The translations under genes and the position numbers were made by a program. Below, piece after piece: positions 2,547 to 18,886 of a DNA stretch of 64,000 nt. The first letter of the stretch is position 1; every line of letters begins with the position of its first letter. The notes under the pieces were generated by a model, which did no database searches, was not told where the DNA came from, and saw only the letters and a list, made by a program, of their open reading frames with translations. Origin of the DNA: Dechloromonas sp. TW-R-39-2 (GTDB lineage Bacteria > Pseudomonadota > Gammaproteobacteria > Burkholderiales > Rhodocyclaceae); contig NZ_CP045202.1 in NCBI RefSeq assembly GCF_016864195.1, positions 2,945,001-3,009,000 of the forward strand, read 5' to 3'.

Positions 2547-2562
2547 GTTGTTCTCCCTCGCC

Positions 2563-4164
2563 TTAGTGGCTGTGCTCGGCGCTACCCTTGCCGAGTTCCG
2601 ACTTCAGGACGAAGCTGCCTGACGCTGCATAAGAGGTTCCTGCTTTCATTCCACTAACCACTTCGATGAATTTGCCATCCGAACGGCCCAAGGTCACCGG
2701 TTGCGCAACGAAACCGTCAGGGACCTTGATGAAAACGACGCTCTTGTCACCAATCGTCTGAATGGCGTCGGTTTGAACGCTGACTGGAACTTCGGCTTCA
2801 CTGGAAACGACTTCGATATTCACGAACAATCCAGGACGCCAAGCCATCTTCGGGTTGGCCAAAGTGACCCGCGCTTTGGCCGTGCGCGTATCCTGTCCGA
2901 GCAATGCACCCACGTAGGAGATGCTGCCTTCGGCTTTCGAGTCGAAGGCAGTTGCCTTAACAACAACCTTTTCACCAACCCGGATGACGTTCAGATCTTT
3001 GGCAGGAACGACAATCTCCGCCCATACGGAAGACAAGTCGGAAATTGTGAAAATACTGGCATCTTCCTTGACTGCCTCGCCAAGTGCGATGTGTTTTTCC
3101 ACGACCATTCCGTCGAAAGGTGCGCGGATTTCATAACGATTGAGACTGCCCGAAACCGTGGCACTGGCACCCAGCGCAATCAACTTTTGCTGGCTGTTAG
3201 CAACGGCGATTTCGGCTTCCCTTAAAGTTTGTTGGGCTTGCAGGTAGTCTTGCTCGGCAGAGATTTTTTCTTCCCAGAGCTTCTTCTCACGCTCATAGGT
3301 CGATTTGGCGAGCGAAAAACGCTTCTGCGCAGCCAGAAGTTCACTGCGTTGCTCCGAAAGGCCAGTGCTGGCGATCACAGCCAGAACCTGACCGCGCTTG
3401 ACTGTTTGCCCCAGATTGGCAGGAACACTCTCGACGACTCCGGCAAGACGGGGTACGACATGCGCGGTACGGTCCTCGTTAAACCGGATTTCGCCGGGAA
3501 GCTGAGCCGCTGTTTTGATTTTGGCGGGAGTGGCCTTCTGGATACCGATGGCAGCAGCTTTAACTTGCTCGTCCGTTAGCTCGATTTTTCCTTCTTCCCG
3601 GGTATCGATGAACAGGAATGGGGTGTTTCCCATTAGCACGGATATGGAGGCTTCGAACACATGCGGCTCTGCAATTTGGCTAGTACTCTTCAGGTAATCC
3701 TTCTCGGCTGTAAAGAAGACTTCCTGCTTCTCGCCGCTAGGTCGAGCCAGTGTTAGAGAGACTTTTGCTGCGGTTGGCGCAAGCGGCTTTCCTTGCTGGA
3801 ACAACCAGACGCGGAAACCTGGCCCGCCACTATCTTCGGACAACAGCAACTCCAGACCAAAACCATCCTCGGAAAAAAGCTTGCCACCATGCGGCCCCGA
3901 TTTTGGTTCATCCTCATGGTGCTCTGTATCTCCATGTTCTTTGGCATGGTCGTGTCCATCACCAGCTTTGCTGCCATGATGCTCGGCATCGGCATGCCCC
4001 TTGGCTTCGGCGTGGGCGTGTTCATGTTGTTCTCCAGTTGGCTTGGAGGCACTGCCCCCTAATATCCAAGTGCCCGCGACAATTCCTGTCGCCAAGATCA
4101 CGGCAATGGCGATCCCTTGCTTTCTGGTGAGATTGAAGGTGTTCTTGTTAAATTTCATTTTCAT
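2563..4164 (-). CDS. czcB: CzcB-type periplasmic adaptor (membrane fusion protein) with His-rich N-terminus
   Basis: Periplasmic membrane-fusion subunit linking the RND pump to the outer-membrane channel. 533 residues: a short cytoplasmic N-terminus, one TM helix (about residues 17-36), then a strongly His/Asp/Glu-rich segment (about 45-95, many HDH/HEH pairs) likely to bind or buffer metal. The lipoyl/barrel-sandwich halves follow (LAGVVESVPANLGQTVKRGQ and IRAPFDGMVVEKHIALGE), flanking a coiled-coil hairpin (about 265-325). The start has a GGAG-like RBS and lies 9 bp after czcC. This protein is longer than many HlyD adaptors because of the His-rich insertion. Assignment is secure at family level. 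Confidence 0.94.
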   Translation of the reverse strand: MKMKFNKNTFNLTRKQGIAIAVILATGIVAGTWILGGSASKPTGEQHEHAHAEAKGHADAEHHGSKAGDGHDHAKEHGDTEHHEDEPKSGPHGGKLFSEDGFGLELLLSEDSGGPGFRVWLFQQGKPLAPTAAKVSLTLARPSGEKQEVFFTAEKDYLKSTSQIAEPHVFEASISVLMGNTPFLFIDTREEGKIELTDEQVKAAAIGIQKATPAKIKTAAQLPGEIRFNEDRTAHVVPRLAGVVESVPANLGQTVKRGQVLAVIASTGLSEQRSELLAAQKRFSLAKSTYEREKKLWEEKISAEQDYLQAQQTLREAEIAVANSQQKLIALGASATVSGSLNRYEIRAPFDGMVVEKHIALGEAVKEDASIFTISDLSSVWAEIVVPAKDLNVIRVGEKVVVKATAFDSKAEGSISYVGALLGQDTRTAKARVTLANPKMAWRPGLFVNIEVVSSEAEVPVSVQTDAIQTIGDKSVVFIKVPDGFVAQPVTLGRSDGKFIEVVSGMKAGTSYAASGSFVLKSELGKGSAEHSH

Positions 4165-4173
4165 GACGGGCTC

Positions 4174-5496
4174 CTACGGACGGCTGGGGACTGCAGATTG
4201 CATTGACTCGATGGAGCCCAAAATGCGCTCCAATTCGGCAGCGGTCCGATGAGCATCGGACAAACTTCTCAGGTATTGGGCTCTCGCCTGAAAGAAAGTA
4301 CGTTGTGCATCCAATACCTCCAAAAAGCTGAACTTCCCCAATTCAAATCCTTTGCTGGCGGCCTCATAGGCGCTACGAGCCCCCGGCATGATTTCGCTTT
4401 GCAAGGCTTGTGCTTCAACAAGCAGCGCTTTTAGCCGCTCCTCGTTTTGTGTCACTTCAGTGCTCAAACGAACCTCGGTAACACTGAGCTCGTCCCGCGC
4501 CTTGTCGGCTCGACGCTGTGCCTCAAGCACATTGCCCTGATTACGGTCGAAGATCGGGAACGGAATTGAGAAACCCACAATGGTTTGGTTGCGCCCCAGC
4601 TCTTCAACCTTTTTGGATCCCAGGCTGACGGTAACGTCAGGAATCCCGCGAGAACGCTCCAAATCGGCGAGTGCTGAAAAGCGATCGACTTCATGGCGTG
4701 CGCGAAGAAGTGCCGGAGAAACGTTCAGGCGACGGGTGATTTCTTCGGTGGAGCGGACCGGCGGCAACATATCGGTGCGTCCTTCGGCCTGTTCGAAGCG
4801 CGGCGTCGAACTTCCCCAACTTGCGGCCAAACGTTTCCGGGCAATCACCAGTTCTCGTTGTGCCTGGTTCAACTCCACTCGTGCTGAGGCTTCCGCAACA
4901 CGGGCTTTTGTTTCCTCAACCGGCGAGATCTTGCCGGCGGTCACACGTCGTGAAGCCGCCTGGCTGGCGCGCTGGGCTAGGCTGAGCAAGTCCTCGGCCT
5001 GTTGAATACGTTCCTGAGCAACCAGAACATCAAAAAAGGCCCCGATCACGGTGGCGCGTACCTCAAGGCTTTTGGCTGCTAGATCGGCTGCTGCTACATC
5101 TCGACCCCGCTCGGCAGATGCAATTCGGGCAGACCGCTTGCCACCAAGCTCGATCCGTTGGTTCAACTGGATCGTCGTGGTCCGCGTGGCCTTATTCTGT
5201 GTATCTTCAACTAAAGATGAAAATTCCGGATTGGGCAGAATGCCTGCTTGGATTACAGCCCCTTCGACTGCACGTAATTCATTGGCGGCAGCGGACAATT
5301 CCGGATTGGACGTTAATGCGAGATCAATCGCCGCCGAAAGGGTCAAGGTTCCAACCGGCTCCTTGGCAAGCGTAGGTGCGAACGTCGTCGAAGTCAGCCG
5401 GTCTTGCGACTGGGCATTGAGATGGGGGCTGGCCAACACCGTCAATCCGAACAGGGTTCGGAGCAGCAATGCGGTAGCGAAATTCCTTGGGTACAT
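4174..5496 (-). CDS. czcC: CzcC-type outer-membrane efflux channel (TolC/OEP family)
   Basis: Outer-membrane channel of the cation efflux complex. 440 residues with a probable Sec signal peptide (residues 1-28, ending at LNAQS) and the two OEP repeats of the TolC superfamily. The opening LTLSAAIDLALTSNPELSAA is the classic first helix-loop of each repeat. Long amphipathic coiled coils follow (about 145-230 and 330-420). First gene of the czcCBA run on the minus strand, 124 bp downstream of czcI, with a stem-loop in between. Slightly longer than the roughly 420-residue CzcC of Cupriavidus. Confidence 0.92.
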   Translation of the reverse strand: MYPRNFATALLLRTLFGLTVLASPHLNAQSQDRLTSTTFAPTLAKEPVGTLTLSAAIDLALTSNPELSAAANELRAVEGAVIQAGILPNPEFSSLVEDTQNKATRTTTIQLNQRIELGGKRSARIASAERGRDVAAADLAAKSLEVRATVIGAFFDVLVAQERIQQAEDLLSLAQRASQAASRRVTAGKISPVEETKARVAEASARVELNQAQRELVIARKRLAASWGSSTPRFEQAEGRTDMLPPVRSTEEITRRLNVSPALLRARHEVDRFSALADLERSRGIPDVTVSLGSKKVEELGRNQTIVGFSIPFPIFDRNQGNVLEAQRRADKARDELSVTEVRLSTEVTQNEERLKALLVEAQALQSEIMPGARSAYEAASKGFELGKFSFLEVLDAQRTFFQARAQYLRSLSDAHRTAAELERILGSIESMQSAVPSRP

Positions 5497-5529
5497 CCGA
5501 TTCTCCAGTGATGAAATACACGTTGGGGA

Positions 5530-5621
5530 ATCGGCGGGGCGCCAACTGACAAGCAGAATGGCACAGAGCGCGGCTCAGGCCGCAGCAAAAAGGTTTGGGA
5601 AAATACCCCAGCCCCGCCGAT
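5530..5621 (-). repeat. Inverted repeat in the czcI-czcC intercistronic gap
   Basis: ATCGGCGGGGC at 5530-5540 is exactly complementary to GCCCCGCCGAT at 5611-5621, giving an 11-bp GC-rich stem around a 70-nt loop. The second arm runs into the stop codon of czcI. This could set a different mRNA level or stability for czcI and czcCBA. There is no U-tract, so it is not a canonical terminator. Confidence 0.6.
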
Positions 5622-5965
5622 CAGGCGGAGATGGACCAGTTGGGGCGTTCGGGCTGGTCGCCAGGCGGTGAAGTCAACAACGGAACTGTCTGAAAAAGAT
5701 CCTCAACGCCCTCGAATTCGGGCAGAGAACCGCTGAAGGCAGTCAACGCAGCAATACAGCCCGCATGACAGACACCGCAATCATTGTCCACATCAGAAAT
5801 AGAACCTTTGGCAAGCTTCTCGCTGTCGTCTGTCTGATGCTTGTGGTCGTGGTGACCGAAGTGCTTCGCCGATCCCGTTTCGTGCTGGCAATAGGTCGCT
5901 GCCACCGCCCAGGAAATCTGGAGCGGCAAAACAATCAACAGGAAAATGGATAGCCAGCGACGCAT
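5621..5965 (-). CDS. czcI: CzcI-like small metal-resistance protein
   Basis: 114-residue exported protein beginning MRRWLSIFLLIVLPLQISWA, a clear signal peptide or anchor. It is followed by a His-rich stretch (HFGHHDHKHQ, about residues 36-45) and a CGVCHAGC double-Cys motif near residues 64-71. This layout (signal, His cluster, Cys pairs, directly upstream of czcC) matches the CzcI family of beta-proteobacterial cation-resistance operons, whose role is accessory or regulatory and poorly defined. The frame and start are supported by its position as first gene of the czcICBA run. Confidence 0.8.
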   Translation of the reverse strand: MRRWLSIFLLIVLPLQISWAVAATYCQHETGSAKHFGHHDHKHQTDDSEKLAKGSISDVDNDCGVCHAGCIAALTAFSGSLPEFEGVEDLFQTVPLLTSPPGDQPERPNWSISA

Positions 5966-6624: not shown

Positions 6625-7308
6625 ATGAAGCTACTGGTTGTCGAAGATGAGCAAAAGCTTGCCCAATACCTGCAAAAGGGATTGGGTTCTGCAGGCTTTG
6701 TCGTTGACCTTGCCCATGACGGTGTAACCGGGCTCCACATGAGTCTGGAGTTCGATTACGCGGCCATCATCCTCGACTCCATGCTGCCCGGCATGGACGG
6801 ACTTGCCTTGCTGGCTGCCTTGCGTACCAAAAAACAAACGCCGGTCTTGATGTTGACCGCGCTGGGTAAAGTGGAAGACCGGGTCAACGGTTTGCAGACG
6901 GGCGCCGACGACTATCTGGTCAAGCCGTTTGCCTTTTCGGAGCTGATCGCTCGAATCCAGGGACTGCTGCGCCGCTCGGCGCAGCATCAACCGGAAAGCA
7001 CGTCGAACCGTCTGGCATTGCACGATCTTGAAATGGATCTGGCTCGCCGTAAGGTCTCCAGGAATGGTCAGCGTATCGACCTGAGTGCCAAGGAGTTCTT
7101 GCTGCTTTCTCTGTTTCTGAGGAAACAAGGCGAGGTGCTATCGCGTACCGAGATTGCCGAGCAGGTTTGGGATATGAATTTCGACAGCAACACCAATGTA
7201 GTCGAAGTTTCGATCAAGCGACTTCGCGCCAAAATGGATACACCCTTCGAGCTCCAACTACTGCACACCGTACGAGGCATGGGTTATGTCCTCGAAATGC
7301 GCGAATGA
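6625..7308 (+). CDS. czcR: OmpR-family response regulator (CzcR/CusR-like)
   Basis: 227 residues. The receiver domain (1-115) has phospho-acceptor Asp51 (LDSMLPGMDG), the acidic pair at residues 7-8 and the switch Lys in DDYLVKPFAF. A winged-helix DNA-binding domain (about 130-225) ends in the family signature VVEVSIKRLRAK and LLHTVRGMGYVL. It is divergent from the metal-efflux genes and overlaps the sensor kinase by an ATGA, so the two are translationally coupled. Control of the adjacent czc operon is inferred from position. Confidence 0.9.
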   Translation: MKLLVVEDEQKLAQYLQKGLGSAGFVVDLAHDGVTGLHMSLEFDYAAIILDSMLPGMDGLALLAALRTKKQTPVLMLTALGKVEDRVNGLQTGADDYLVKPFAFSELIARIQGLLRRSAQHQPESTSNRLALHDLEMDLARRKVSRNGQRIDLSAKEFLLLSLFLRKQGEVLSRTEIAEQVWDMNFDSNTNVVEVSIKRLRAKMDTPFELQLLHTVRGMGYVLEMRE

Positions 7309-8639
7309 AACTTGGCAAACAGATTAACCCGACGCTGAGTGGTCGCCTTGTACGCTGGCTCGCCTCACTAAGTTTGGGTGTCCTTGGATGTTTGTGTCTC
7401 GGAGTATTTTTCTCGGTCAAAATCAATCTTGAGTCACAACAGGATCTACGCCTTGAAAAGCTCAGTACGGCAATTCAGCACCTGTTTGAAGAAACGCCGG
7501 CACACCTGCAACCGGAAACACTGGAACATGACCTGGAAGATCTTCTGAAGATCAATCGGGACTTGCATCTCAAGTTGCTCGATAGATTGGGTGAGGCTCG
7601 TTTCATTTCGACGCCAAGTGCGTGGCCGTTAAAAGCGCGCTTTCACTCGCTTGCACTTCCCGACGGAGCTCCGAGGACAAATTTTGCCGTTGCCGAACTG
7701 GCGCTCGACACCGCGCCGGACGAGGCTATTCTGGATCGCCTCGCAGCCATTCTCTGGGGGGCTGCATTGATCGGCAGTGCTGCGATCACCGTGGGCGGTT
7801 ACCTGCTCGTTTATTTTGGACTGGCCCCCATTCGGACACTGGCTGAGCAAACGCGCTGTCTCGCAATACTTTCCCTCGACAAACGGTTGGAAACTGAGGG
7901 GATTCCCGCCGAGCTACAAGTGCTTGTCGATCAGTTCAACGATTTGCTAAACCGACTGGAAAAAGCCTACCAGCAGCTCGAAGGATTCAATGCCGATGTA
8001 GCGCACGAATTGAGAACGCCGTTGGCGAGTATCATCGCTAGCAGTGAATTGGCTTTGCGTAGCAACGACAAGGATGAAAATCTGCGTGATTGCATCGGTG
8101 CGAATCTCGAAGAAATGCACAGGCTGTCGGGCATAGTGAATGACATGCTGTTCCTGTCGCAAGCCGACCGGGGTGCAAAAGCCCGGCGGAAACCCATTCA
8201 AAGCCTCGCCCAACTCTGCACTGAGGTGGCTGACTACTATGAAGCCGTGCTGATTGAGTCCGACCTTCAGTTGTCGATTGAAGGTGACGCTTCCGGCCTG
8301 TTCGATGCTGCACTGCTACGGCGCGTACTGTCCAATTTACTGAATAATGCAGCTCGATATGCCGATCACGGGAGTGCAATCGTGATCCGGATAACGCCGA
8401 AAACAGATGGACGACTTAAACTCTCGGTGATCAACCGAGGCAAACCGATTCCTGATGAAAGCCTGCCTCATATCTTCAATCGTTTTTACCGCGTAGACAC
8501 GTCACGTAGCCACGGCCACCAAAATCACGGACTGGGCCTCGCCATCGTTAGCGCGATTGCGCGGATGCATGACGGGGAGGCATTCGCAATATCGGGGAGC
8601 GATGAAATCGAAATTGGTGTGTTGTTGACTTCTGGGTGA
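7305..8639 (+). CDS. czcS: Heavy-metal sensor histidine kinase (CzcS/CusS-like)
   Basis: 444 residues from the ATG that overlaps the czcR stop. An upstream in-frame extension exists but lies inside czcR. Architecture: TM1 (about 20-45), a periplasmic sensor loop of roughly 120 residues, TM2 (about 160-185), HAMP, DHp with the phospho-accepting His234 in FNADVAHELRTPLAS, then HATPase_c with N-box (NLLNNAARYA) and G-box (HGLGLAIVSAIARMH). Partner of the response regulator at 6625. Metal sensing is inferred from neighbours. Confidence 0.88.
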   Translation: MKLGKQINPTLSGRLVRWLASLSLGVLGCLCLGVFFSVKINLESQQDLRLEKLSTAIQHLFEETPAHLQPETLEHDLEDLLKINRDLHLKLLDRLGEARFISTPSAWPLKARFHSLALPDGAPRTNFAVAELALDTAPDEAILDRLAAILWGAALIGSAAITVGGYLLVYFGLAPIRTLAEQTRCLAILSLDKRLETEGIPAELQVLVDQFNDLLNRLEKAYQQLEGFNADVAHELRTPLASIIASSELALRSNDKDENLRDCIGANLEEMHRLSGIVNDMLFLSQADRGAKARRKPIQSLAQLCTEVADYYEAVLIESDLQLSIEGDASGLFDAALLRRVLSNLLNNAARYADHGSAIVIRITPKTDGRLKLSVINRGKPIPDESLPHIFNRFYRVDTSRSHGHQNHGLGLAIVSAIARMHDGEAFAISGSDEIEIGVLLTSG

Positions 8640-8729
8640 AGCCTGCCCCAATGCAGCAATGGCATATATAGTCGCTTTGCTGGATTTAGCTTAAGCTTTG
8701 CCTAGCTGATACAATCGAAAATTGTTCGC

Positions 8730-8890
8730 GGTGCCTGCTTGCCTTTTTGGCAGCGGGTGAAACGGGAAACAGGTCAAATGCCTGTGCTGCCCCCGCAACG
8801 GTAGGGAAGTGCGGAATCATCTCAAGGCCACTGGGTTCTATCCTGGGAAGGCGATGGTTCAAAACTCCTGAGCCCGGAGACCGGCCACGG
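8730..8890 (+). ncRNA. Cobalamin (B12) riboswitch
   Basis: All core blocks of the AdoCbl/cobalamin aptamer are present in order: GGTGCCTGC at 8730, GGTGAAACGGGAAACAGG (8756-8773), CTGCCCCCGCAACGGTA (8787-8803), GCCACTGG...GGGAAGGCG (8827-8853) and AGCCCGGAGACCGGCC (8871-8886). A 6-bp stem (CGTTGC/GCAACG, 8905-8922) and a 128-nt leader separate it from the porin-like gene, whose AAGGGG ribosome site lies at about 9008. High B12 should lower expression of the downstream genes. A TACAAT box at 8710 is a possible -10 element. Confidence 0.92.
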
Positions 8891-9018
8891 ACAATCAGCG
8901 GAAGCGTTGCGGGGATGCAACGGCCGGCGCGATTCCTATTGCCCCTGCTTTTCCCCGTTCCGTCTCCACCTTCGTCGATGACCGGCTGCGGGGACGCTCG
9001 CCGGAACAAGGGGCCATC

Positions 9019-10473
9019 ATGCATCACCACCTCAAACGCACCGTCATTGCGGCTGCGTTGCTTTCAGCACTGCACTCCTACGCCGCAGAAATAACAACCC
9101 AACCAACGTCCGGCAAAACCGGCTCTGGGCGCAAAGCACTGCTTCAACGCATCGAAACGCTCGAAAAACAACTCGGCGAGATGCAGCAACTCATATTGTC
9201 TCAACAAGGCCAACCGAGCAAAAACACTCAGCCGACTGAACCCGTCGCCGGCAATAAAGTGGTCGTAGCACGTCTGAATGAAATGGAAGCACGACTGGCC
9301 ACGGTAGAAACCACCACCGTTCTCTCCGAACCCAAAACGGCAGTAAAGCAGATTCAGGTCTACGTCGATGCCGATGGCAATCAATACGATCACCCCGTCG
9401 CGGGCGCAACCCCGACGCTGACCTATCAAAGGGAGCGCGTCTATCGGCGGCAAACCATACGCGAGGAAATCGAAGAGGCACTGGCGGCCGAAAAGAAAGG
9501 CAGCATCGAACTGGGCGTCAGCAATGTCACCACAGCACAAATGGCCTTGCAGACAGGAGGACCGTCATCACGGGCCAATCGTCATACCTATGGACTATCA
9601 GCGGCCGATGTGACCTTCCGGGCAAAATCGGCCGCACTGAATACCGAGTTCTTTGCCGACGTCGTCGGCATCGGCGGCTCCGCTCCTGACCAGGAAATTT
9701 CGGCCATCAATTTGCTCAACAGCCAAGCGGCTCGCCTCAGCAACAACCAGCTAAATCTACGTGAAGCGTGGATCAGAACCGAATTGCTCAATCAAAAATT
9801 GGGGTTGAGTGTCGGTCGTCTTGATCTGACCAACTATTTCGATCGTAACGTCGTGGCCAACGATGAAACGGAGCGCTTCATCAGCGACGCGCTGGTCAAT
9901 AACCCGGTCCTCGGTTTGACAACGAACGGCCTTGGCTTCGCCGCAATCTACGACCCGAAGAGCAACATCAATTTCAAGCTGGGTATGCAGCAAAGCAGCA
10001 CTGAAGCGACCAGTCTATCCACCTCGCTTTACTCGCTGGCGGAGGTGGAATATATCGCTCGGCCGCTTTCCTTGCCTGAAGGCCGTTATCGACTCTGGGG
10101 ACGGCAAGACAACAGCACCGGCAGCAACAAGACCGGTGCCGGCGTCAGCTTCGACCAGAAGCTGACCTCGGCTGTGACCTTGTTCGGGCGTTACGGCAGC
10201 GGCTATGTCGGCAGTGTTGGCGGAACGATGAAGTTCTACAGCGGCGGCCTGGCCTTCCAGGCCCCCTACACCTTCAATCCGCTCGACATGTGGGGCGTCG
10301 GCTACGCACAAACCGACCTGTACAACGGCAACACGGAAAAACTGGCCGAAGGGTTCTACAACCTTCGTCTGGCAGATCACCTCTCCCTCTCATTCCTGCT
10401 GCAGTACGTCATGGAATCGAAGACGAAGGAAAGCTATCTGATTCCGGGTGTTCGCATGAAGGTCAGCTTCTAA
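9019..10473 (+). CDS. B12-riboswitch-controlled outer-membrane porin-like protein
   Basis: 484 residues. Signal peptide at 1-22 (cleavage after SYA), then a coiled coil (about 38-60, LLQRIETLEKQLGEMQQLIL) and a second short one near residues 80-100. This resembles the trimerising N-terminal coils of OprO/P- and DUF3138-type porins. The rest (about 165-484) alternates amphipathic strands and loops and ends in a terminal Phe (VRMKVSF), the usual outer-membrane insertion signature. It is the first gene after a cobalamin riboswitch, the position normally held by the TonB receptor BtuB, but there is no plug domain or TonB box. Uptake or release of a cobalt or corrinoid compound is inference. Confidence 0.75.
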   Translation: MHHHLKRTVIAAALLSALHSYAAEITTQPTSGKTGSGRKALLQRIETLEKQLGEMQQLILSQQGQPSKNTQPTEPVAGNKVVVARLNEMEARLATVETTTVLSEPKTAVKQIQVYVDADGNQYDHPVAGATPTLTYQRERVYRRQTIREEIEEALAAEKKGSIELGVSNVTTAQMALQTGGPSSRANRHTYGLSAADVTFRAKSAALNTEFFADVVGIGGSAPDQEISAINLLNSQAARLSNNQLNLREAWIRTELLNQKLGLSVGRLDLTNYFDRNVVANDETERFISDALVNNPVLGLTTNGLGFAAIYDPKSNINFKLGMQQSSTEATSLSTSLYSLAEVEYIARPLSLPEGRYRLWGRQDNSTGSNKTGAGVSFDQKLTSAVTLFGRYGSGYVGSVGGTMKFYSGGLAFQAPYTFNPLDMWGVGYAQTDLYNGNTEKLAEGFYNLRLADHLSLSFLLQYVMESKTKESYLIPGVRMKVSF

Positions 10474-10496
10474 CGGAAATGCAAGGAGAACAAAAA

Positions 10497-11735
10497 ATGT
10501 CGAAATCAAAGCTAAATCAGGTTATGGGTGTGCTCCTGGCTGCTGCCAGCCTGATGACAGTTTCATCATCAATGGCACAGATGAAACACACGCCCGGCAT
10601 GTCGATGCCGGCCCCTTCATCCTCTTCAAAAGTGATTATCAGCGACCCAGCATCGGCCATGATGATTGTCGATCGCGACTCCAACGATATTGCATTCATG
10701 GATCTCAAGAGCCGCAAAATCCTGGGCCGAACCTTCCTCGGCAACAACGTTAACCCGCACATGGCGATGATGTCGCCTGACGGCCGCTACGTTGTCACCG
10801 GCGGTACCCGCGCCAACACCGCCTACGTCATCGATGCCCGTACGCTGGAACTGGTCAAAAAGATTCCGGTGGGAATCTCTCCCGAGCACTTCTCGTTCTC
10901 CCCGGATGGCCGCTATTACTACCAGGGAAATCCGGAGGGCGATTCGATTACCGTGATCGACATGGCGTCGCTCAGCGTGATCAAAACCATTGAAGGGCTG
11001 GCCGAGCCGCTCAACATTACCTTCACGCACGACGGCTCCAAGGCCTACGTCGGCAACTACGGGGCGCACTGGGTTGGCGTCATTGACGTCACACGCCACC
11101 AGTTGCTCAAGAAAATCCAGATTGCCAACGTACCCGGCATTTCGCGCCTCGATCCGGGCAAGTACCTGAAGGAGATCAAGGGCATCTCCATGCCCGCCAT
11201 GAGTCTCGACAATCGCTACATCTATGCCGCCGATGGCGACCTGGGCGTGGTAGGCGTGATCGACACGCGTGAAGACAAGGTGGTCAAAGTCATCCGCGTC
11301 GGTCAAAACCCGTGGCGTATTTACATGGGGCATGACGGCAAGTACGCCATTACCGTCAATAACGGCGATGAGACCATATCGATCATCGATCTCCAGAGAA
11401 ACGAAGTGGCCGCCACCCTGCCGGCGGGACCGGACATGACCGGCGTCAACTTTGCCGCGGGCAAGGCTTTCGTCATCAGCTCGACTACCGGCTTTGTCTA
11501 TGTCTACAACATGAAAACCTTGAAGCCCGCAGGCCGGATCAAGATCGGCACCAACATTCAGTTGGAAACAGCGACCACCGACTTGGCCGACGAGAAGATC
11601 TATCTGGCGGCATCCACCGACCACTCCATCTACATCATTGACGGCAAGACGGAAGCAGTCGAGCGGATTCCCAATGTCGGCCTGTATCCATGGGGAACAC
11701 ACATCATGGATAGCAAAGACAATTATTGCCATTGA
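10497..11735 (+). CDS. Exported YVTN-type beta-propeller protein
   Basis: 412 residues from the ATG at 10497 (AAGGAG at 10483); an in-frame upstream extension lies inside the porin gene and is rejected. Signal peptide (about 1-26, ending SSSMA), then MKHTPGMSMPAPSSSS, a Met/His-bearing linker that could bind a soft metal. The body has repeated blades with YVTN-like motifs (YVVTGGTRANTAYVIDART, AYVGNYGAHWVGVIDV, AITVNNGDETISIIDL), consistent with a seven- or eight-bladed propeller. The protein ends DNYCH. It lies 23 bp downstream of the porin and is in the same riboswitch-led transcript. Such propellers serve as scaffolds or metal-binding periplasmic partners; no enzymatic motif is seen. Confidence 0.85.
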   Translation: MSKSKLNQVMGVLLAAASLMTVSSSMAQMKHTPGMSMPAPSSSSKVIISDPASAMMIVDRDSNDIAFMDLKSRKILGRTFLGNNVNPHMAMMSPDGRYVVTGGTRANTAYVIDARTLELVKKIPVGISPEHFSFSPDGRYYYQGNPEGDSITVIDMASLSVIKTIEGLAEPLNITFTHDGSKAYVGNYGAHWVGVIDVTRHQLLKKIQIANVPGISRLDPGKYLKEIKGISMPAMSLDNRYIYAADGDLGVVGVIDTREDKVVKVIRVGQNPWRIYMGHDGKYAITVNNGDETISIIDLQRNEVAATLPAGPDMTGVNFAAGKAFVISSTTGFVYVYNMKTLKPAGRIKIGTNIQLETATTDLADEKIYLAASTDHSIYIIDGKTEAVERIPNVGLYPWGTHIMDSKDNYCH

Positions 11736-11740
11736 CCTGA

Positions 11741-11775
11741 ATGGTTTCCCGCAGTTGCCAACTGTGGGAAACCAT
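11741..11775 (+). repeat. 35-nt near-perfect inverted repeat between propeller and adaptor genes
   Basis: ATGGTTTCCCGCAGTT (11741-11756) folds against AACTGTGGGAAACCAT (11760-11775), about 16 bp with a single G.U and a 3-nt loop. It begins 6 bp after the propeller stop codon. No U-tract follows, so it is probably an mRNA-processing or partial-termination hairpin that separates the first two genes from the pump genes. Confidence 0.65.
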
Positions 11776-11820
11776 CAAGCCAGAAATAGCTGATCCAGCT
11801 TCCTGAAAGAGAGAATAGCC

Positions 11821-12531
11821 ATGCGTCGTTTTGTTTTTGTGAGTGCCGCATTCTGGTGTCTGTTACCGCCCCTCGCGCAAGGCGCGGACCTCCGTGAACG
11901 CATGCGGACGCAGGCTGATGGCATCAAGGTGACCGGAGCGCAAGCCAGTGATCTCACGCTGACCTTGACTGAGGCAGCCATGCGCCCCGTTCAGACCTGG
12001 ATACGCACAGTGGGAACGATCGCTCAGGATGGTCAAAGCATCTCGGCGCAACTGCGTGCATCCGAGGCAGAAGGTGTGCAGATTGGGCAGCGAACACGCA
12101 ACTTTGCAGCCAATGCCCGAACGCAAATGCATCAGGGCAAGGTCATCAAGGTCGCCCCACAGGCTGGCGGCCCTCTGGTGCTATCGACCTTGGCTGACCG
12201 AGGACACACACCCGGCACGCGCTATCTGATGGAGATCGTTGTTGAGCGCGGGCCGTATCTGTCGATTCCCAACGTCTCGATCATTGAAGAAGGCGGCAAT
12301 CAACTCGCTTACATCGAAATGCAACCGGCAGGGAGTGGCATCTATGCGCCACGCGTGATCCAGACAGGCATCCAAGGGGAACAGTATACGGAGGTCAAGC
12401 AGGGGCTATTTGAAGGAGACCGCGTCGTTTCGATCGGCAGTTTTTTCGTCAATGCCGAAGACAAACTGAAAATGCCGCGGCAAGGCATTTGTACAACCAT
12501 CGGACCCAGCAATGAACTTCACCATCATTGA
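11821..12531 (+). CDS. Short periplasmic adaptor-like protein of an RND system
   Basis: 236 residues with a signal peptide (1-21, ending AQG). The mature protein resembles the outer parts of RND/HlyD adaptors: a beta-domain start (TWIRTVGTIAQDG) and a C-terminal membrane-proximal part (TGIQGEQYTEVKQGLFEGDRVVSIGSFFVNAEDKLK, close to CusB/CzcB C-termini). The long coiled-coil hairpin and a recognisable lipoyl motif pair are missing. Typical adaptors have 380-530 residues, so this is a reduced or degenerate form. The C-terminal tail is overlapped by 20 bp with the pump start. Adaptor function is inference from the C-terminal similarity and the neighbouring RND gene. Confidence 0.65.
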   Translation: MRRFVFVSAAFWCLLPPLAQGADLRERMRTQADGIKVTGAQASDLTLTLTEAAMRPVQTWIRTVGTIAQDGQSISAQLRASEAEGVQIGQRTRNFAANARTQMHQGKVIKVAPQAGGPLVLSTLADRGHTPGTRYLMEIVVERGPYLSIPNVSIIEEGGNQLAYIEMQPAGSGIYAPRVIQTGIQGEQYTEVKQGLFEGDRVVSIGSFFVNAEDKLKMPRQGICTTIGPSNELHHH

Positions 12532-15500
12532 AAGCGTCATCCGGCGCAAGGCCGCGGTCTTGCTGACGGTACTCGCCGCCGTGCTGCTGAGCGCCTATGC
12601 CATCCTGACGGCGCCGCTGGATGCGACTCCCGACATGTCCGATCCGCAAATCGTCCTCTATGCCAAGTGGGCACGCAGTCCGCAATTGCTGGAGTCCCAG
12701 GTCAGCACCCCGATCATCAAGTCCTTGGCCGGCACCCCGGGCATTCAATCAATCCGCAGTACCTCACACATGGGGTACTCCTTCATCTACATCATCCTTA
12801 AGGGCGAGTCGCAGCGCCCGGCCGTCCAGAAAGTCGTCGCCGACCGGCTGAATGCCATCCGCCCACAACTGCCCGTCGATGCCACGGTAACCCTCGGGCC
12901 GAACGCCAGCAGCATGGGCTGGATTTATCAATACGCAGTGGTTGATACCAGCGCCACACTGGATCTCCGTGACCTCCGTTTGCTGCACGAGAACCAGATC
13001 AAGCCGGGCCTGCAGACCGTGCCCGGTGTCGCCGAGGTGGCATCGGTCGGCGGTCTTGAGAAACAATACCAGTTCAAGGTTTTTCCGCCGCTACTGGCTG
13101 AGTCAGGCCTGTCACTCAAGCAAATCGTGACCTCCCTCCAGAACGCTTTTCAGCAAGCGGGCGGACGCACGATCGAAGTGACCAATCGCGACTACCAGAT
13201 TCGCGGCATTGTCAGCTACGACAACATCGACCAGCTCGAACTGATGGTCGTCGGCTATCGACCGGACGGCAAGCCGGTTCGCCTGAAAGACATCGGTTAT
13301 ATCCAGGTCGGCTACGACCAGCGCCGCGGGGTGGCCGAGCTCGACGGCAAGGGCGAAGTGGTGGGCGGCATCGTCATCATGGAGCAGAAGCACAACGTGC
13401 TGGAAGTCACTCACGCCCTCGACCAGAAGCGGAAGGAAATCCAGGCCGGACTGCCGCCAGGCGTCGAACTCGTCACCACCTACGATCGTTCGGCACTGAT
13501 CTGGGGGACGCTCGAGCACTTCCTGAGCACGCTGGGGTACGAACTCGTCGTCGTTATCGCGGTAATGCTTCTCTTCTTGCGCAATGCCCGCACTGCCGTT
13601 GCGCCGGTGGTCATCCTGCTGCTGGGCGTCGCCTTCACCTCGATCCCTCTGGCAGGATTTCACCAGACGATCAATCTCTTCTCGCTCGCCGGCCTGTTCA
13701 TCGCGATCGGCGAAATGGTCGATGCGACGATCGTCATTGTCGAGAACTGCACGGCAGAACTGGCAGCGCGTCGCCGATCCAATGGCGAGCTCAGCGCAGC
13801 GGAAAAGCGAGCCGTCATCATCCATTCCATCGCCAACGTGGCGCGGCCCCTGCTGTTCTCGCTACTCATCATTCTCGTATCCTTCCTGCCGGTCTTCTTC
13901 CTGACCGAGAAGGAAGGCCGGCTGTTCGATCCGCTGGCCTACAGCAAGACCTTTGCCATGCTCTTTTCCACCTTGCTGACCATTTTCCTGTTGCCCATCA
14001 TCATTGACTGGGTTTTTGGGAAGAGCACCAAAGTCTCCGGCCACGAAGGACATGCCGAATCGGGGTTGGCCCCCGCCTATCGTTACGCTATCGGCAAGGT
14101 CATCCGCTATCGCTACCTGTTCCTGGCGGGCAGCGTGGCGGCCATGGTCGGCGCGGTGCTGTTGCTGAGCCAGTTCCGGACGGATTTCATGCCGCAGATG
14201 GAAGAAGGCTCGGTGCTGTACATGCCGACGACGCTGCCCGGCGTGCCGGTGCGGGAAGCAGCCTGGATTCTGCAGCAGATGGACAAGAAACTCGCTGCCT
14301 TCCCCGAGGTCAAGCGCGTCTTCGGCAAACTTGGCCGCGCCGATACCTCGACTGACCCGGCACCGGTATCGATGATCGAAACGACCATTTCGCTCAAGCC
14401 TCAGAACGAGTGGCGCCCGGGGATGACGAAGGACAAGCTGGTCGCTGAAATGGACGCGGCGATGAAGGTCACCGGTTATGTGAATACCTGGGTACAACCG
14501 ATCAGTGCCCGCGTGGCCATGCAGGACACGGGCATTCAAACGGCGGTCGGCATCAAGATCAAAGGCAGCGACATTGCCACGCTGGAGAAGCTCGGCCAGG
14601 ACATCGAAGATCTGCTGCGGACGCTCCCGAAGACAAAATCGGTCATCGCTGAACGCATTTCATCAGGCTATTTTATCGACACGCAACTTGATCCGGTGCG
14701 CATGGCGCAGTTGGGCATGAGCGCCGATGAGGCGATGCTGACGGTGCGCTATGCCATCGGCGGGGATAACGTCGTTGCTATTAAAGACCAGAATAATCTG
14801 ACCATCCCGCTCGCCCTGCAATATGCACCGGACTACATCGATACCCTGGAAAAAATCCGCAACACTCCGGTGATGGGATCAGGACAACACGCGGTGCCCC
14901 TGAAAGAGATCGCCGATGTGGCGGTGCGCAAGATGCCAGAGATGCTGCGCAACGAAAATGGTGCACAGACCGGGTACATCTATATCGACATTGGTAATGC
15001 CAGCGCCACCGACTACGTTGATAGCGCACAGCAGTTGCTCGCCAATCGTCTCGTGCTGCCGGCAGGCTATACCCTTGAATGGACCGGCGATCATCAGAAC
15101 GTGGCCCGCTCGCATGCCCAACTCAAGATGATCGTACCGCTGACCGTGGCGATCATTTTTGTCTTGCTGGTCCTGGCGTTCCGCTCACTAACCGACAGCC
15201 TTGTCATCATGTTATCGATCCCGTTCGCCTTCGTTGGTGCCGTGGCACTCCAGTGGGGGCTAGGCTATTCAATGACCACCGCGGTGATCATCGGATACAT
15301 CGCATTGTTCGCGGTCGCCATCCAGACGGGCATCATCATGATCATTTTCATCCGCCAGGCACTGAAGCGCAAAACCGAGGGCACCAGCTACATGACTGCG
15401 GTGATCGAAGGTTCGGTCGCTCGCTTGCGCCCCAAATTGATGACCGTCGCCTGCGCCACCCTGTCACTGCTGCCAGTTATGATTTTAAGCGGCCCCGGCA

Positions 15501-15691
15501 TGGAAATCATGAAACCGATCGCGACACCCACCATCGGCGGCATGATCAGTTCATCCATCTACGTGCTATTTTTGATTCCCTGTTTGTTCGCAATTGGACA
15601 GGACATGAAGTGCTGGTGGCAACATCGTCCGCCATTGACGCTTCGCAACTTCTGGCGGTTGAAAACCTGGAAGCTGCGCGCATCCGACTAA
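12512..15691 (+). CDS. CusA/CzcA-type heavy-metal RND pump in the B12-riboswitch operon
   Basis: 1,059 residues, full length for the HME-RND family, with 12 predicted TM helices and two large periplasmic loops. TM4 carries IAIGEMVDATIVIVENC, closer to CusA (GAMVDAAIVMIEN) than to CzcA (DFGxxIDG). Other CusA-like stretches are EEGSVLYMPTTLPG, FGKLGRADTSTDPAP, WRPGMTKDK and VAMQDTGIQTAVGIK, where Met residues near the CusA copper-binding positions are retained. No outer-membrane TolC factor lies nearby. The start overlaps the adaptor gene. Family is certain; the substrate is open, since the regulation suggests a cobalt or corrinoid link while the residues suggest a CusA-like site. Confidence 0.9.
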   Translation: MNFTIIESVIRRKAAVLLTVLAAVLLSAYAILTAPLDATPDMSDPQIVLYAKWARSPQLLESQVSTPIIKSLAGTPGIQSIRSTSHMGYSFIYIILKGESQRPAVQKVVADRLNAIRPQLPVDATVTLGPNASSMGWIYQYAVVDTSATLDLRDLRLLHENQIKPGLQTVPGVAEVASVGGLEKQYQFKVFPPLLAESGLSLKQIVTSLQNAFQQAGGRTIEVTNRDYQIRGIVSYDNIDQLELMVVGYRPDGKPVRLKDIGYIQVGYDQRRGVAELDGKGEVVGGIVIMEQKHNVLEVTHALDQKRKEIQAGLPPGVELVTTYDRSALIWGTLEHFLSTLGYELVVVIAVMLLFLRNARTAVAPVVILLLGVAFTSIPLAGFHQTINLFSLAGLFIAIGEMVDATIVIVENCTAELAARRRSNGELSAAEKRAVIIHSIANVARPLLFSLLIILVSFLPVFFLTEKEGRLFDPLAYSKTFAMLFSTLLTIFLLPIIIDWVFGKSTKVSGHEGHAESGLAPAYRYAIGKVIRYRYLFLAGSVAAMVGAVLLLSQFRTDFMPQMEEGSVLYMPTTLPGVPVREAAWILQQMDKKLAAFPEVKRVFGKLGRADTSTDPAPVSMIETTISLKPQNEWRPGMTKDKLVAEMDAAMKVTGYVNTWVQPISARVAMQDTGIQTAVGIKIKGSDIATLEKLGQDIEDLLRTLPKTKSVIAERISSGYFIDTQLDPVRMAQLGMSADEAMLTVRYAIGGDNVVAIKDQNNLTIPLALQYAPDYIDTLEKIRNTPVMGSGQHAVPLKEIADVAVRKMPEMLRNENGAQTGYIYIDIGNASATDYVDSAQQLLANRLVLPAGYTLEWTGDHQNVARSHAQLKMIVPLTVAIIFVLLVLAFRSLTDSLVIMLSIPFAFVGAVALQWGLGYSMTTAVIIGYIALFAVAIQTGIIMIIFIRQALKRKTEGTSYMTAVIEGSVARLRPKLMTVACATLSLLPVMILSGPGMEIMKPIATPTIGGMISSSIYVLFLIPCLFAIGQDMKCWWQHRPPLTLRNFWRLKTWKLRASD

Positions 15692-15743
15692 CCCAGGCAT
15701 CTGTCCGTTTTGCGATGCTTACCCCCACCCAATATGGATGCAG

Positions 15744-17966
15744 CTATCGCGAACGGACCATGCGCAGCCCGTTTCCGACAACCAGCAGACTGGCCCCCAT
15801 GTCGGCGAATACCGCCATCCACATGGTGGCATTTCCGAACACAGCCAGTCCAAGAAATATGACCTTGATCCCCAAGGCCAGTCCGATGTTCTGCCAGAGC
15901 ACGGCGTGCGTCCGACGAGACAGGCGGATGGTCTCAGGAATGCGCCGCAAATCGTCGTTCATAATGACAACATCGGCGGCCTCCATAGCGGTATCTGTGC
16001 CGGCAGCCCCCATGGCGACACCGATATCAGCGCGTGCCAAGGCGGGCGCATCGTTGATGCCATCACCGGTCATGGCTGTCGGGCCATGACGCCCCTGCAA
16101 TTCCTCGATTGCAGCCAGCTTGTCTTCCGGCAGCAAATTGCCTCGTGCATCGTCGATCCCTGCCTGGCGGGCAATACTGGTTGCGGTTGCGACGTTGTCG
16201 CCGGTGAGCATGACCGACGTGACACCAAGGCGATGCAGATCGCTAATTGCTTCCCGCGAGCTTTCCTTGATGGTGTCAGCCACCGCGAATATGGCCAGTA
16301 CCCGATCCTCGGTAGCCAGCAGAGTGGCGGTTCGCCCTTGATTTTCATGAACGGCAAGACGCGCCTCGATCTCGGGGCTGCACAATCCGCGATCTTCAAT
16401 CAACCGATGGTTGCCCAGTATCAAGGTATGTCCATCTAGGCGGGCTTCAATGCCGCGACCCGGAAGCGCGGTGAAGTCGGTGAGACCGTTTTCCGGGAGA
16501 TTCAGTCCCTTGGCAATTGCTTTCGAAACGGGGTGGTCCGAATGGCCGGCTAGGCTGGCGGCCCAGGAAAGCACCTTTGCTTCTGGATCGGAGGGGGACA
16601 GCACCTCTGTGGCTACCAGGCGAGGCTTGCCTTCCGTGATGGTGCCGGTCTTGTCGAGAGCAATGACGCGCAGTTTGCGAGCTTCTTCCAGATAGACGCC
16701 GCCTTTGATCAGGATGCCGCGCCGAGCGGCTGCGGCCAGTCCGCTGACAACTGTAACCGGCGTAGCGATAACTAGCGCGCAGGGACAGGCAATTACCAGG
16801 AGAACCAGTGCCTTGTAGAGCGCCTGTGTCCACATCCAGTCGAACAGCCAGGGGCCGCCAATTGCCACGGCCACGGCAATTGCAAAAATGGCCGGCGTAT
16901 AAATGGCGGCAAAGCGATCAACGAAACGCTGGGTTGGAGCCCGCGTGCCTTGGGCTGCCTCGACGGCATGGATGATGCGAGCCAGGGTCGTGTTGTTGGC
17001 GGCAGCCGTCACCTCGAATTCCAGCATGCCGGTCTCGTTGATGGTGCCGGCGAAAACAGGATCGCCAGTCGTCTTGTCGACAGGAATGCTCTCGCCGGTG
17101 ACCGGCGCCTGGTTGACCGCACTGCTGCCGGCGGTTACTCGCCCATCCAGCGGGATGCGGGCGCCAGGTTTCACCCGGGCGAGTGCACCAATGGCAACCT
17201 TGTCGGCCGGCGTCTCCAGCCAGCCACCATCGCCTTGGCGAATCTCGGCGGTTTCCGGGGCTAAGGCGAGGAGCCCCTTGATGGCGTTGCGTGCCCGATC
17301 GACGGACCGTGCCTCGATTAGTTCGGCGATGGCGTAAAGCGCCATGACCATGGCGGCCTCCGGCCATTGGCCGATCAGGAAGGCACCGGTCACGGCGACG
17401 CCCATCAGGGCATTCATGTTCAACTGGCCGCGCCGCAATGCGGCCAGTCCCTTGCGATAGGTGGAGAATCCAGAGAAAGCGATGGCAGCTGCTGCCAACG
17501 CCATACCCAGCCCCTTGAACGGCAAGGTGTCGGGTGCGAAGAAATCCAAAACCTCGGCCCCGATGGCCAATGCCAGGGCGATCAATGCCTTACTGATCTC
17601 GCCGAGACCTGATGGGGTTTCAGCCATCTGTTCATGCTCGATGGGCAGCACTTCAAAACCAAGGTGGCGGATGACCTGTAACGCACTTTCCTGGGCAGAC
17701 TGCTCGCCATCGATGGTCAGGGTCCGGGACGCCAGTTCGAAGCGTAGTGACCGAATCCCCTCAATGCCTGTCAGCACCTTGCGGATATCGTTTTCTTCGT
17801 TCGGGCAGTCCATGGCGGGAATCCGAAAAACGCTCGAATTCCCTGAGGAGTTAGGTACAGCGACACGCGGCACATCCTGTATGGAGGTCGTATCCGTCAC
17901 ACCGCCACCTGAACACGCGCAACGCTCAGGCTCATTGGATCGGTGCTTCTCGGCATGGGTGGGCAT
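15744..17966 (-). CDS. cadA: P1B-type heavy-metal translocating ATPase (CadA/ZntA-like)
   Basis: 740 residues. An N-terminal soft-metal tail (ERCACSGGG) is followed by one ferredoxin-like metal-binding domain with a single-Cys MDCPNEE motif (Cys54) instead of GMTCxxC. Then come eight TM helices with the CPC transport site at Cys394/Cys396 ([13 protein letters not shown]), phosphorylation Asp438 (DKTGTITEG), the SDHP nucleotide-binding His-Pro and the [16 protein letters not shown] hinge. Exports Zn/Cd/Pb from the cytoplasm at ATP cost. Transcribed divergently from ynfA-cadR, with a shared MerR-type promoter region. It ends facing the RND gene. Confidence 0.93.
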
Positions 17967-18054: not shown

Positions 18055-18390
18055 ATGTTGGAGTTCCTGAAGATATTGGGGCTCTTCGTCGTCACCGCGC
18101 TGGCCGAAATCATCGGCTGCTATTTGCCCTGGCTGGTGCTGACGCAGGGTCACCAGCGTTGGCTTCTGATCCCGGCAGCCGTGTCACTGGCTCTGTTTGC
18201 CTGGCTGCTTACATTACATCCGGGCGCCGCCGGTCGCATCTACGCAGCTTATGGCGGTGTCTATGTTGCGCTCGCCTTGTTGTGGCTATGGCAGGTCGAT
18301 GGAATTCCCCTGACCCGTTGGGATTTGCTGGGCAGTGCCGTATGTCTCGGTGGCATGGCCATCATCGCTTTGCAGCCTGGCCGGACGTGA
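18055..18390 (+). CDS. ynfA: YnfA-family (UPF0060) small membrane protein
   Basis: 111 residues, four hydrophobic helices. It has the family pattern: the opening helix [17 protein letters not shown], then [16 protein letters not shown] and the final GMAIIALQP helix. The ATG at 18055 is chosen because AAGGAG lies at 18043 and the alternative upstream ATG at 18031 would overlap the -10 box. YnfA proteins are SMR-like transporters of uncertain substrate and often sit in metal-resistance clusters. It is co-transcribed with the MerR-type regulator, 22 bp upstream of it. Confidence 0.9.
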
Positions 18391-18412
18391 TGAGCGAACC
18401 AGGGAGACAGAA

Positions 18413-18886
18413 ATGAAAATCGGCGAACTGGCGCGTTTAGCAGGAAGTAATGTCGAAACGATCCGCTACTACGAGCGGAAAGGACTGTTGCCGAAACCAG
18501 GGCGGAGCGAGGGAAATTACCGCATCTACGGTGTAATGCACCAGGAGCGACTGACCTTCATTCGGCACTGTCGTAGCTTGGACATGACACTCGACGAGAT
18601 TCGGACGCTATTGCGCTTCAAGGAATCACCGGAGGAAAACTGCGGCGAGGTCAACCGCTTGCTGGATGAACACATCGGGCATGTCGTCCGTCGCATCGGT
18701 GAACTCCAAGCGCTGGAAAAACAGCTTCTTGAGCTGCGCAGTCGTTGTCCTGATGACCGTCGAGCCTCGACTTGCGGGATTCTTGAAGGCTTGTCGCAAT
18801 CGGGCATAAGCGCGGAGCCGATGGGAAATCACATTCCAGGGGTACACGGAATGGCGTTACCCCCCTCTACGGACCTGCATGAATAA
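18413..18886 (+). CDS. cadR: MerR-family metal regulator (CadR/PbrR-like)
   Basis: 157 residues from the ATG at 18413. The N-terminal winged helix (MKIGELARLAGSNVETIRYYERKGLL) is followed by a dimerisation helix (about 78-112) and metal-site cysteines Cys77, Cys112 and Cys121, the spacing seen in Cd/Pb-responsive CadR/PbrR proteins. The tail after residue 125 contains His residues (NHIPGVHG) that may widen metal binding. Expected to bind the dyad between its operon and cadA and activate both by DNA untwisting. Whether Cd, Zn or Pb is the inducer cannot be decided here. Confidence 0.88.
   Translation: MKIGELARLAGSNVETIRYYERKGLLPKPGRSEGNYRIYGVMHQERLTFIRHCRSLDMTLDEIRTLLRFKESPEENCGEVNRLLDEHIGHVVRRIGELQALEKQLLELRSRCPDDRRASTCGILEGLSQSGISAEPMGNHIPGVHGMALPPSTDLHE

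Follow-up and report, generated by a model that had tools for sequence, protein, structure and literature searches.

A conserved operon of porin, d1-type propeller, short adaptor and RND pump whose cobalamin riboswitch goes with corrin synthesis and which may serve cobalt supply

Within a 64,000-nucleotide (nt) stretch of the Dechloromonas sp. TW-R-39-2 genome (NZ_CP045202.1, positions 2,945,001 to 3,009,000; hereafter the window), a cobalamin riboswitch precedes four genes encoding a porin, an exported propeller, a short periplasmic adaptor and a resistance-nodulation-division (RND) permease. The gene order is conserved, the riboswitch co-occurs with corrin synthesis among the host genomes, and the propeller has a d1-type fold with residues equivalent to ligand-binding residues of the nitrite reductase NirS. 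A role in the B12 and cobalt economy of the riboswitch-bearing hosts is likely. We tentatively read the operon as an envelope system that B12 makers derepress at low coenzyme B12 and that improves the supply of cobalt for corrin synthesis; in the same proposal, the cobalt would travel as the ion or on a tetrapyrrole carrier.

A conserved operon behind a cobalamin aptamer

The operon comprises the following features (window coordinates, strand):

8712-8903, +: cobalamin riboswitch aptamer (RF00174), complete model, 116 bits, E 2.2e-28
8904-9018, +: leader, from aptamer to porin start
9019-10473, +: OprB-family porin with N-terminal coil, 484 residues (PF04966, 38.7 bits, cut-off 22.9; alignment)
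10497-11735, +: exported eight-bladed propeller of cytochrome-cd1 (d1-domain) type, 412 residues, with R60, H88, R105 and a C-terminal NYCH
11736-11820, +: intergenic gap of 85 nt; hairpin of 16 pairs, T-run absent; whole-gap fold -33 kcal/mol
11821-12531, +: short periplasmic adaptor, 236 residues, β-core, no α-hairpin
12512-15691, +: CusA-branch RND permease, 1059 residues, Met triad conserved, Gln where CusA has Glu939 (TIGR00914, 803.7 bits)

The cobalamin aptamer proposed by a first-pass annotation of the sequence passed the covariance-model search over model positions 1-189, far above the gathering score of 31.5. The four open frames lie on one strand 3' of it, separated, from the aptamer on, by 115, 23, 85 and -20 nt. 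B12 presumably represses the operon through this element. Scans of the leader for terminator-like and sigma-70-like sites came up empty; the fold of 8712-9060 was no better than that of shuffled sequences (z -0.98), and no expression platform was recognised in the leader. On the forward strand of 8600-15900, terminator-like sites number two, both within the RND gene. The hairpin between propeller and adaptor genes is a possible mRNA processing or stability element.

Scanning a collection of 84,980 species' genomes with the porin alignment returned 30 loci, of which one (L058, 26% identity) was dropped; the remaining 29 are a lower bound because the scan relied on two peptide patterns. All four genes stand in order in 23 of the 29, and the other six loci end 0-136 nt past the last gene found. 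Hosts are Dechloromonas, Burkholderiales, Alphaproteobacteria, Gammaproteobacteria and Acidobacteria. Near homologues of both porin and adaptor are encoded by Azoarcus sp. DN11. The system is rare, occurring in 2/60 genomes (own included) and in 2/40, 1/348 and 1/399 genomes of three orders (the centre genome counted each time); searches for further carriers in two orders, scoring at most 4 candidates per genome, turned up no more. A same-genus contig with several RND genes (G011:C32) holds a porin remnant of some 40 to 42 residues, 81-85% identical (L011, 1504-1623), perhaps of a decayed operon copy.

Three plasmid records of Manganitrophus (Nitrospirota) encode the porin (33-36% identity) and propeller (43-44%), each pair behind a row of cob/cbi genes and with no adjoining adaptor or pump, the rest of these genomes not having been searched. 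In GAC1 and GAC2, the annotation splits one gene of the pair in two.

The riboswitch tracks corrin-ring synthesis

At the Rfam threshold, the porin gene is preceded by an aptamer in nine further loci (L029, L046, L047, L048, L050, L051, L053, L056 and L057; that of L029, at 36.3 bits, is cut by the contig) and in all three Manganitrophus records, so that the same operon or gene pair stands behind a riboswitch in three lineages of two phyla. No aptamer reached the gathering threshold at 18 loci (L030-L037, L039-L045, L052, L054, L055), and in eight of these (L030, L031, L033-L037, L055) none appeared up to E 10, the other ten having been scanned at the gathering threshold only. L049 and L038, with too little upstream DNA, were left out of the count.

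CbiC is needed for corrin-ring synthesis. It is encoded in the genomes of 8/10 riboswitch loci versus 0/18 loci without one (Fisher p 1.4e-5; within Pseudomonadota 8/10 vs 0/4, p 0.015; both values leave shared ancestry uncorrected, and the genomes are for the most part incomplete metagenome assemblies). CbiD agrees, at 8/10 versus 0/7 tested; for the two undecided loci, CbiC is present in the genome of L049 and absent from that of L038. The operon also adjoins cob/cbi genes in L047, where it faces a riboswitch-led row of CobO, CobB, CbtA, CbiX, CbiC and CbiD, and in L057, where it faces CobB; on the three Manganitrophus replicons porin and propeller do so alone.

These patterns bear on a corrinoid or tetrapyrrole uptake or salvage function, in which the propeller would bind a corrinoid in the manner of BtuG or NirF and scavenge without TonB. 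The cobalamin riboswitch itself would suit such a function, as would a d1-type propeller bearing R60/H88/R105. Yet the riboswitch sits mostly in corrin makers (8/10) and at none of the 18 non-maker loci, even though cobalamin riboswitches do occur elsewhere in 10/12 of the non-maker genomes scanned. In addition, B12 is amidated, whereas R60 and R105 correspond to arginines that bind carboxylates; OprB porins let through small solutes. We consider salvage unlikely. Because riboswitch control tracks CbiC and CbiD, a need specific to corrin makers, for cobalt or a ring intermediate, fits better than corrinoid uptake. The first-pass annotation had proposed a cobalt or corrinoid transport system across both membranes: aptamer, conserved operon and cob/cbi neighbours uphold an envelope system linked to B12 and cobalt, and its corrinoid-uptake arm is weakened.

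In one concatenated FastTree, riboswitch carriers fall into a gamma group, with the non-carrier L055 inside it, and a pair from Rhodocyclales that sits nested within non-carriers; Manganitrophus is a distant root and the base is weakly supported. The window aptamer groups with that of a TonB receptor/CobN unit in its own genome. Recruitment of a riboswitch by the operon on more than one occasion is likely, though not proven.

In L030 the operon has a Fur-family gene as its neighbour (2099-2611, -), and in L036 a Zur-like one (4549-5019, +), both below the curated NCBIfam cut-offs; the scan of these two genomes found no cobalamin riboswitch anywhere. Fur/Zur control was considered as an alternative to the riboswitch and set aside, Zur-type patterns having no match in any of 29 upstream stretches. 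Nor would a Zur gene beside the operon prove uptake, because in Caulobacter an operon for RND efflux is activated by Zur (PMC4176598).

A d1-type propeller and an OprB porin

The exported β-propeller of the first-pass annotation was confirmed through its YVTN repeats; the N-terminal Met/His linker described with it is not a family feature. Its eight-bladed cd1-type assignment is the best fold match of a VIA-align comparison against listed families, and a family outside that list may fit. Aligned to NirS, R60, H88 and R105 pair with the axial histidine and the carboxylate-binding arginine pair. This motif, drawn up after the sequences were seen, recurs in 19/20 rows, and the exception (L008) still keeps R60 and H88. 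The protein has no cytochrome c domain and no CxxCH in its 412 residues; its sole cysteine is C411, hence there is no N-terminal lipoprotein cysteine.

Seven histidines are conserved in the family, which prompted a comparison with the CuZ-type histidine cluster of NosZ; this was dropped, cd1 being the best fold match, and NosZ did not appear among the 60 of 95 propeller profile matches listed. A further idea is that nitrous oxide (N2O) lowers B12 and that this shortage switches on the handling of copper for nitrous-oxide reductase. The propeller does match the L-NosZ family weakly (91.4 bits, cut-off 700), and copper deficiency raises N2O and alters B12-riboswitch genes in Paracoccus (PMC8390676). 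However, the fold is cd1-like and long NosZ matches occur in only 3/7 riboswitch genomes tested versus 1/12 others, so that no general link exists and we regard the idea as highly improbable.

The porin-like protein with an N-terminal coil described at first pass proved to be of the OprB family. The suggestion that it takes the place of BtuB was rejected: in the source genome, two other cobalamin riboswitches each lead a TonB-dependent receptor gene. The porin's nearest paralogue in that genome, likewise an OprB porin with a coil, adjoins genes for a PF10634 iron protein, a cupredoxin and an FTR1 permease (L060, 5660-8926), and homologues of these four stand together in all 17 loci returned (L012-L028; 16 of the same genus, one of the same order). 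Given this association, porins of the operon's type appear to accompany metal uptake here.

A CusA-type pump with a reduced adaptor

The adaptor has a weak CzcB/CusB-type match (1.5e-6) and its model a β-core without α-hairpin; the permease is of CusA/CzcA type (TIGR00914 cut-off 701.45), and none of the four genes encodes an outer-membrane factor. A reduced adaptor and a full heavy-metal RND pump lacking a TolC channel, both first-pass predictions, are thus borne out. Without a hairpin, the adaptor would not be expected to contact a TolC-type channel in the ordinary manner. Residue tables covered 20 family members and 30 RNDs of relatives. The periplasmic Met triad of CusA (573, 623, 672) is kept in 20/20 family pumps, with Gln at Glu939 and Phe/Leu at Met391 in 20/20 and Ile at Met410 in 19/20; Met391, Met410 and Glu939 are all retained in the 10/10 triad-bearing pumps of relatives. 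Many of the family's metagenomic adaptors among those listed (P0135-P0240) bear a CopC domain (PF04234), and those aligned have Met/His-rich linkers.

These residues invite a copper-guard function, in which the pump clears periplasmic Cu(I) during B12 synthesis and so keeps copper from competing with cobalt, with porin and propeller in copper traffic. The invariant triad speaks for it, as do the CopC-joined adaptors, CusF in L036, YtkA in L041 and the lack of any propeller, adaptor or porin residue that tells riboswitch carriers from non-carriers. On the other side stand the missing outer-membrane factor and hairpin, the altered transmembrane Met391 and Met410 and Glu939, and the three Manganitrophus replicons, on which porin and propeller alone lie beside cob genes (the rest of the genomes were not searched for a pump). 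We hold a copper guard to be possible, if rather unlikely, and prefer cobalt or a cobalt-related tetrapyrrole as cargo.

Genomic surroundings

The operon is set in a metal island:

3-5965, -: RND (running past the window edge), adaptor and outer-membrane efflux protein (OEP) cluster
4177-5496: outer-membrane factor (OEP) of that cluster (PF02321)
6625-8639, +: CopR/CusR-type (CopRS-type) two-component pair, upstream of the operon
15744-17966, -: ZntA-type ATPase, downstream of the operon
18335-18886, +: MerR regulator, downstream of the operon

Its position between the RND/adaptor/OEP cluster with two-component regulators and the ATPase would agree with ordinary heavy-metal efflux, the riboswitch being there by chance. 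The repeated occurrence of the same operon or gene pair behind a riboswitch in three lineages, and beside cob genes, makes this very unlikely.

The source genome, one contig of 3.46 Mb, has seven cobalamin riboswitches. Five of the other six precede, respectively, CbiM/CbiN/CbiQ; a TonB receptor; a nitroreductase-family gene, probably BluB-like, with CobD; CobT (PF02277); and a TonB receptor with CobN further on. A radical-SAM gene (L063, 1003-2833) lies about 190 nt downstream of the sixth.

A proposed route for cobalt

In the cobalt-supply reading, the riboswitch would silence the operon while B12 is plentiful. As B12 falls, the porin would open a route through the outer membrane, and the propeller may hold an acidic, precorrin- or siroheme-like tetrapyrrole, with H88 as axial ligand and R60/R105 on its side-chain carboxylates. 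The RND permease and hairpin-less adaptor would pass cargo between inner membrane and propeller, not outward. A doubtful, more specific version is a corrin-type cobaltophore: at low B12, RND and short adaptor would hand a metal-free precorrin- or sirohydrochlorin-like tetrapyrrole to the NirF-like propeller, which would capture cobalt arriving via the porin and return it to B12 synthesis. If true, an RND machine would be serving to acquire metal, and B12 would control a periplasmic carrier of tetrapyrroles.

Several observations weigh against the cobalt-supply reading. The first-pass annotation had named a majority of riboswitch-less homologues as grounds for rejecting its proposal, and in the raw count 18 of the 28 decidable loci (window included) lack a riboswitch, with ten carriers; we do not take this as refutation because absence follows lineage and B12 synthesis. 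L050 and L056 have the riboswitch without CbiC/CbiD, and independent recruitment is thinly based, the window aptamer being 64% like its own-genome counterpart versus 62% like the gamma operon aptamer of L056. As to the propeller, the R60/H88/R105 motif is missing from 5/5 NirN-like and 2/5 NirF-like genes, the distal His327/His369 and Arg372 of NirS are unmatched in the alignment, global alignments to NirN and NirF slip by blades and leave H88 unpaired, and a PH motif also occurs in another YVTN protein. RND pumps normally export, and in CusA the conserved Met triad forms the site for Cu(I)/Ag(I). Riboswitch-less relatives show copper signs (CopC joined to the adaptor, CusF downstream in L036, YtkA and PepSY in L041). 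Finally, at the thresholds used, no propeller, adaptor or porin residue splits riboswitch carriers from non-carriers, and therefore bacteria that make no B12 may handle the same cargo; four RND residues do so, scattered over the protein.

Comparison with known systems

The first-pass annotation saw the four genes as no standard set; among the matches listed from open PMC articles (titles and the starts of abstracts, with few subscription papers), there was no account of this operon or of a CusA-type RND behind a cobalamin riboswitch. One paper names Icu and a CzcA-related RND as putative cobalt transporters (PMC3621897), and according to a 2021 review a cobalt-specific receptor in the outer membrane had yet to be confirmed (PMC7689651). 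Lying behind a cobalamin riboswitch in B12 makers, the operon is a concrete candidate for cobalt passage through the outer membrane. It would be unusual for an RND pump to serve a nutrient pathway, and a nitrite-reductase-type propeller joined to such a pump would link denitrification-cofactor biology with B12.

The operon resembles CbiMNQO, CbtAB, IcuABC and the cobalt TonB receptors in its linkage to cobalamin riboswitches or cob operons, and CbiM/N/Q and CbtA were found among the riboswitch and cob neighbourhoods here; those systems belong to other protein families and have no porin-propeller-RND set. Compared with CusCBA, of the heavy-metal efflux (HME) RND class for copper and silver, it lacks CusC, has an adaptor without α-hairpin and contains porin and propeller instead, and its pump differs from CusA in having Gln for Glu939 and in the loss of Met391 and (19/20) Met410. 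The short Borrelia adaptor BesA is a near relation in kind but belongs to another operon, working in drug efflux with BesB/BesC. Like BtuG of Bacteroidetes, a seven-bladed, B12-binding surface lipoprotein beside BtuB with an N-terminal cysteine, the propeller is under B12-related control; unlike BtuG, it is eight-bladed and has no such cysteine. It shares the d1-type eight-bladed fold with NirS, NirF and NirN, and differs from NirS in lacking the cytochrome c domain and the distal residues, and from all three in ending in NYCH and in its B12-riboswitch context.
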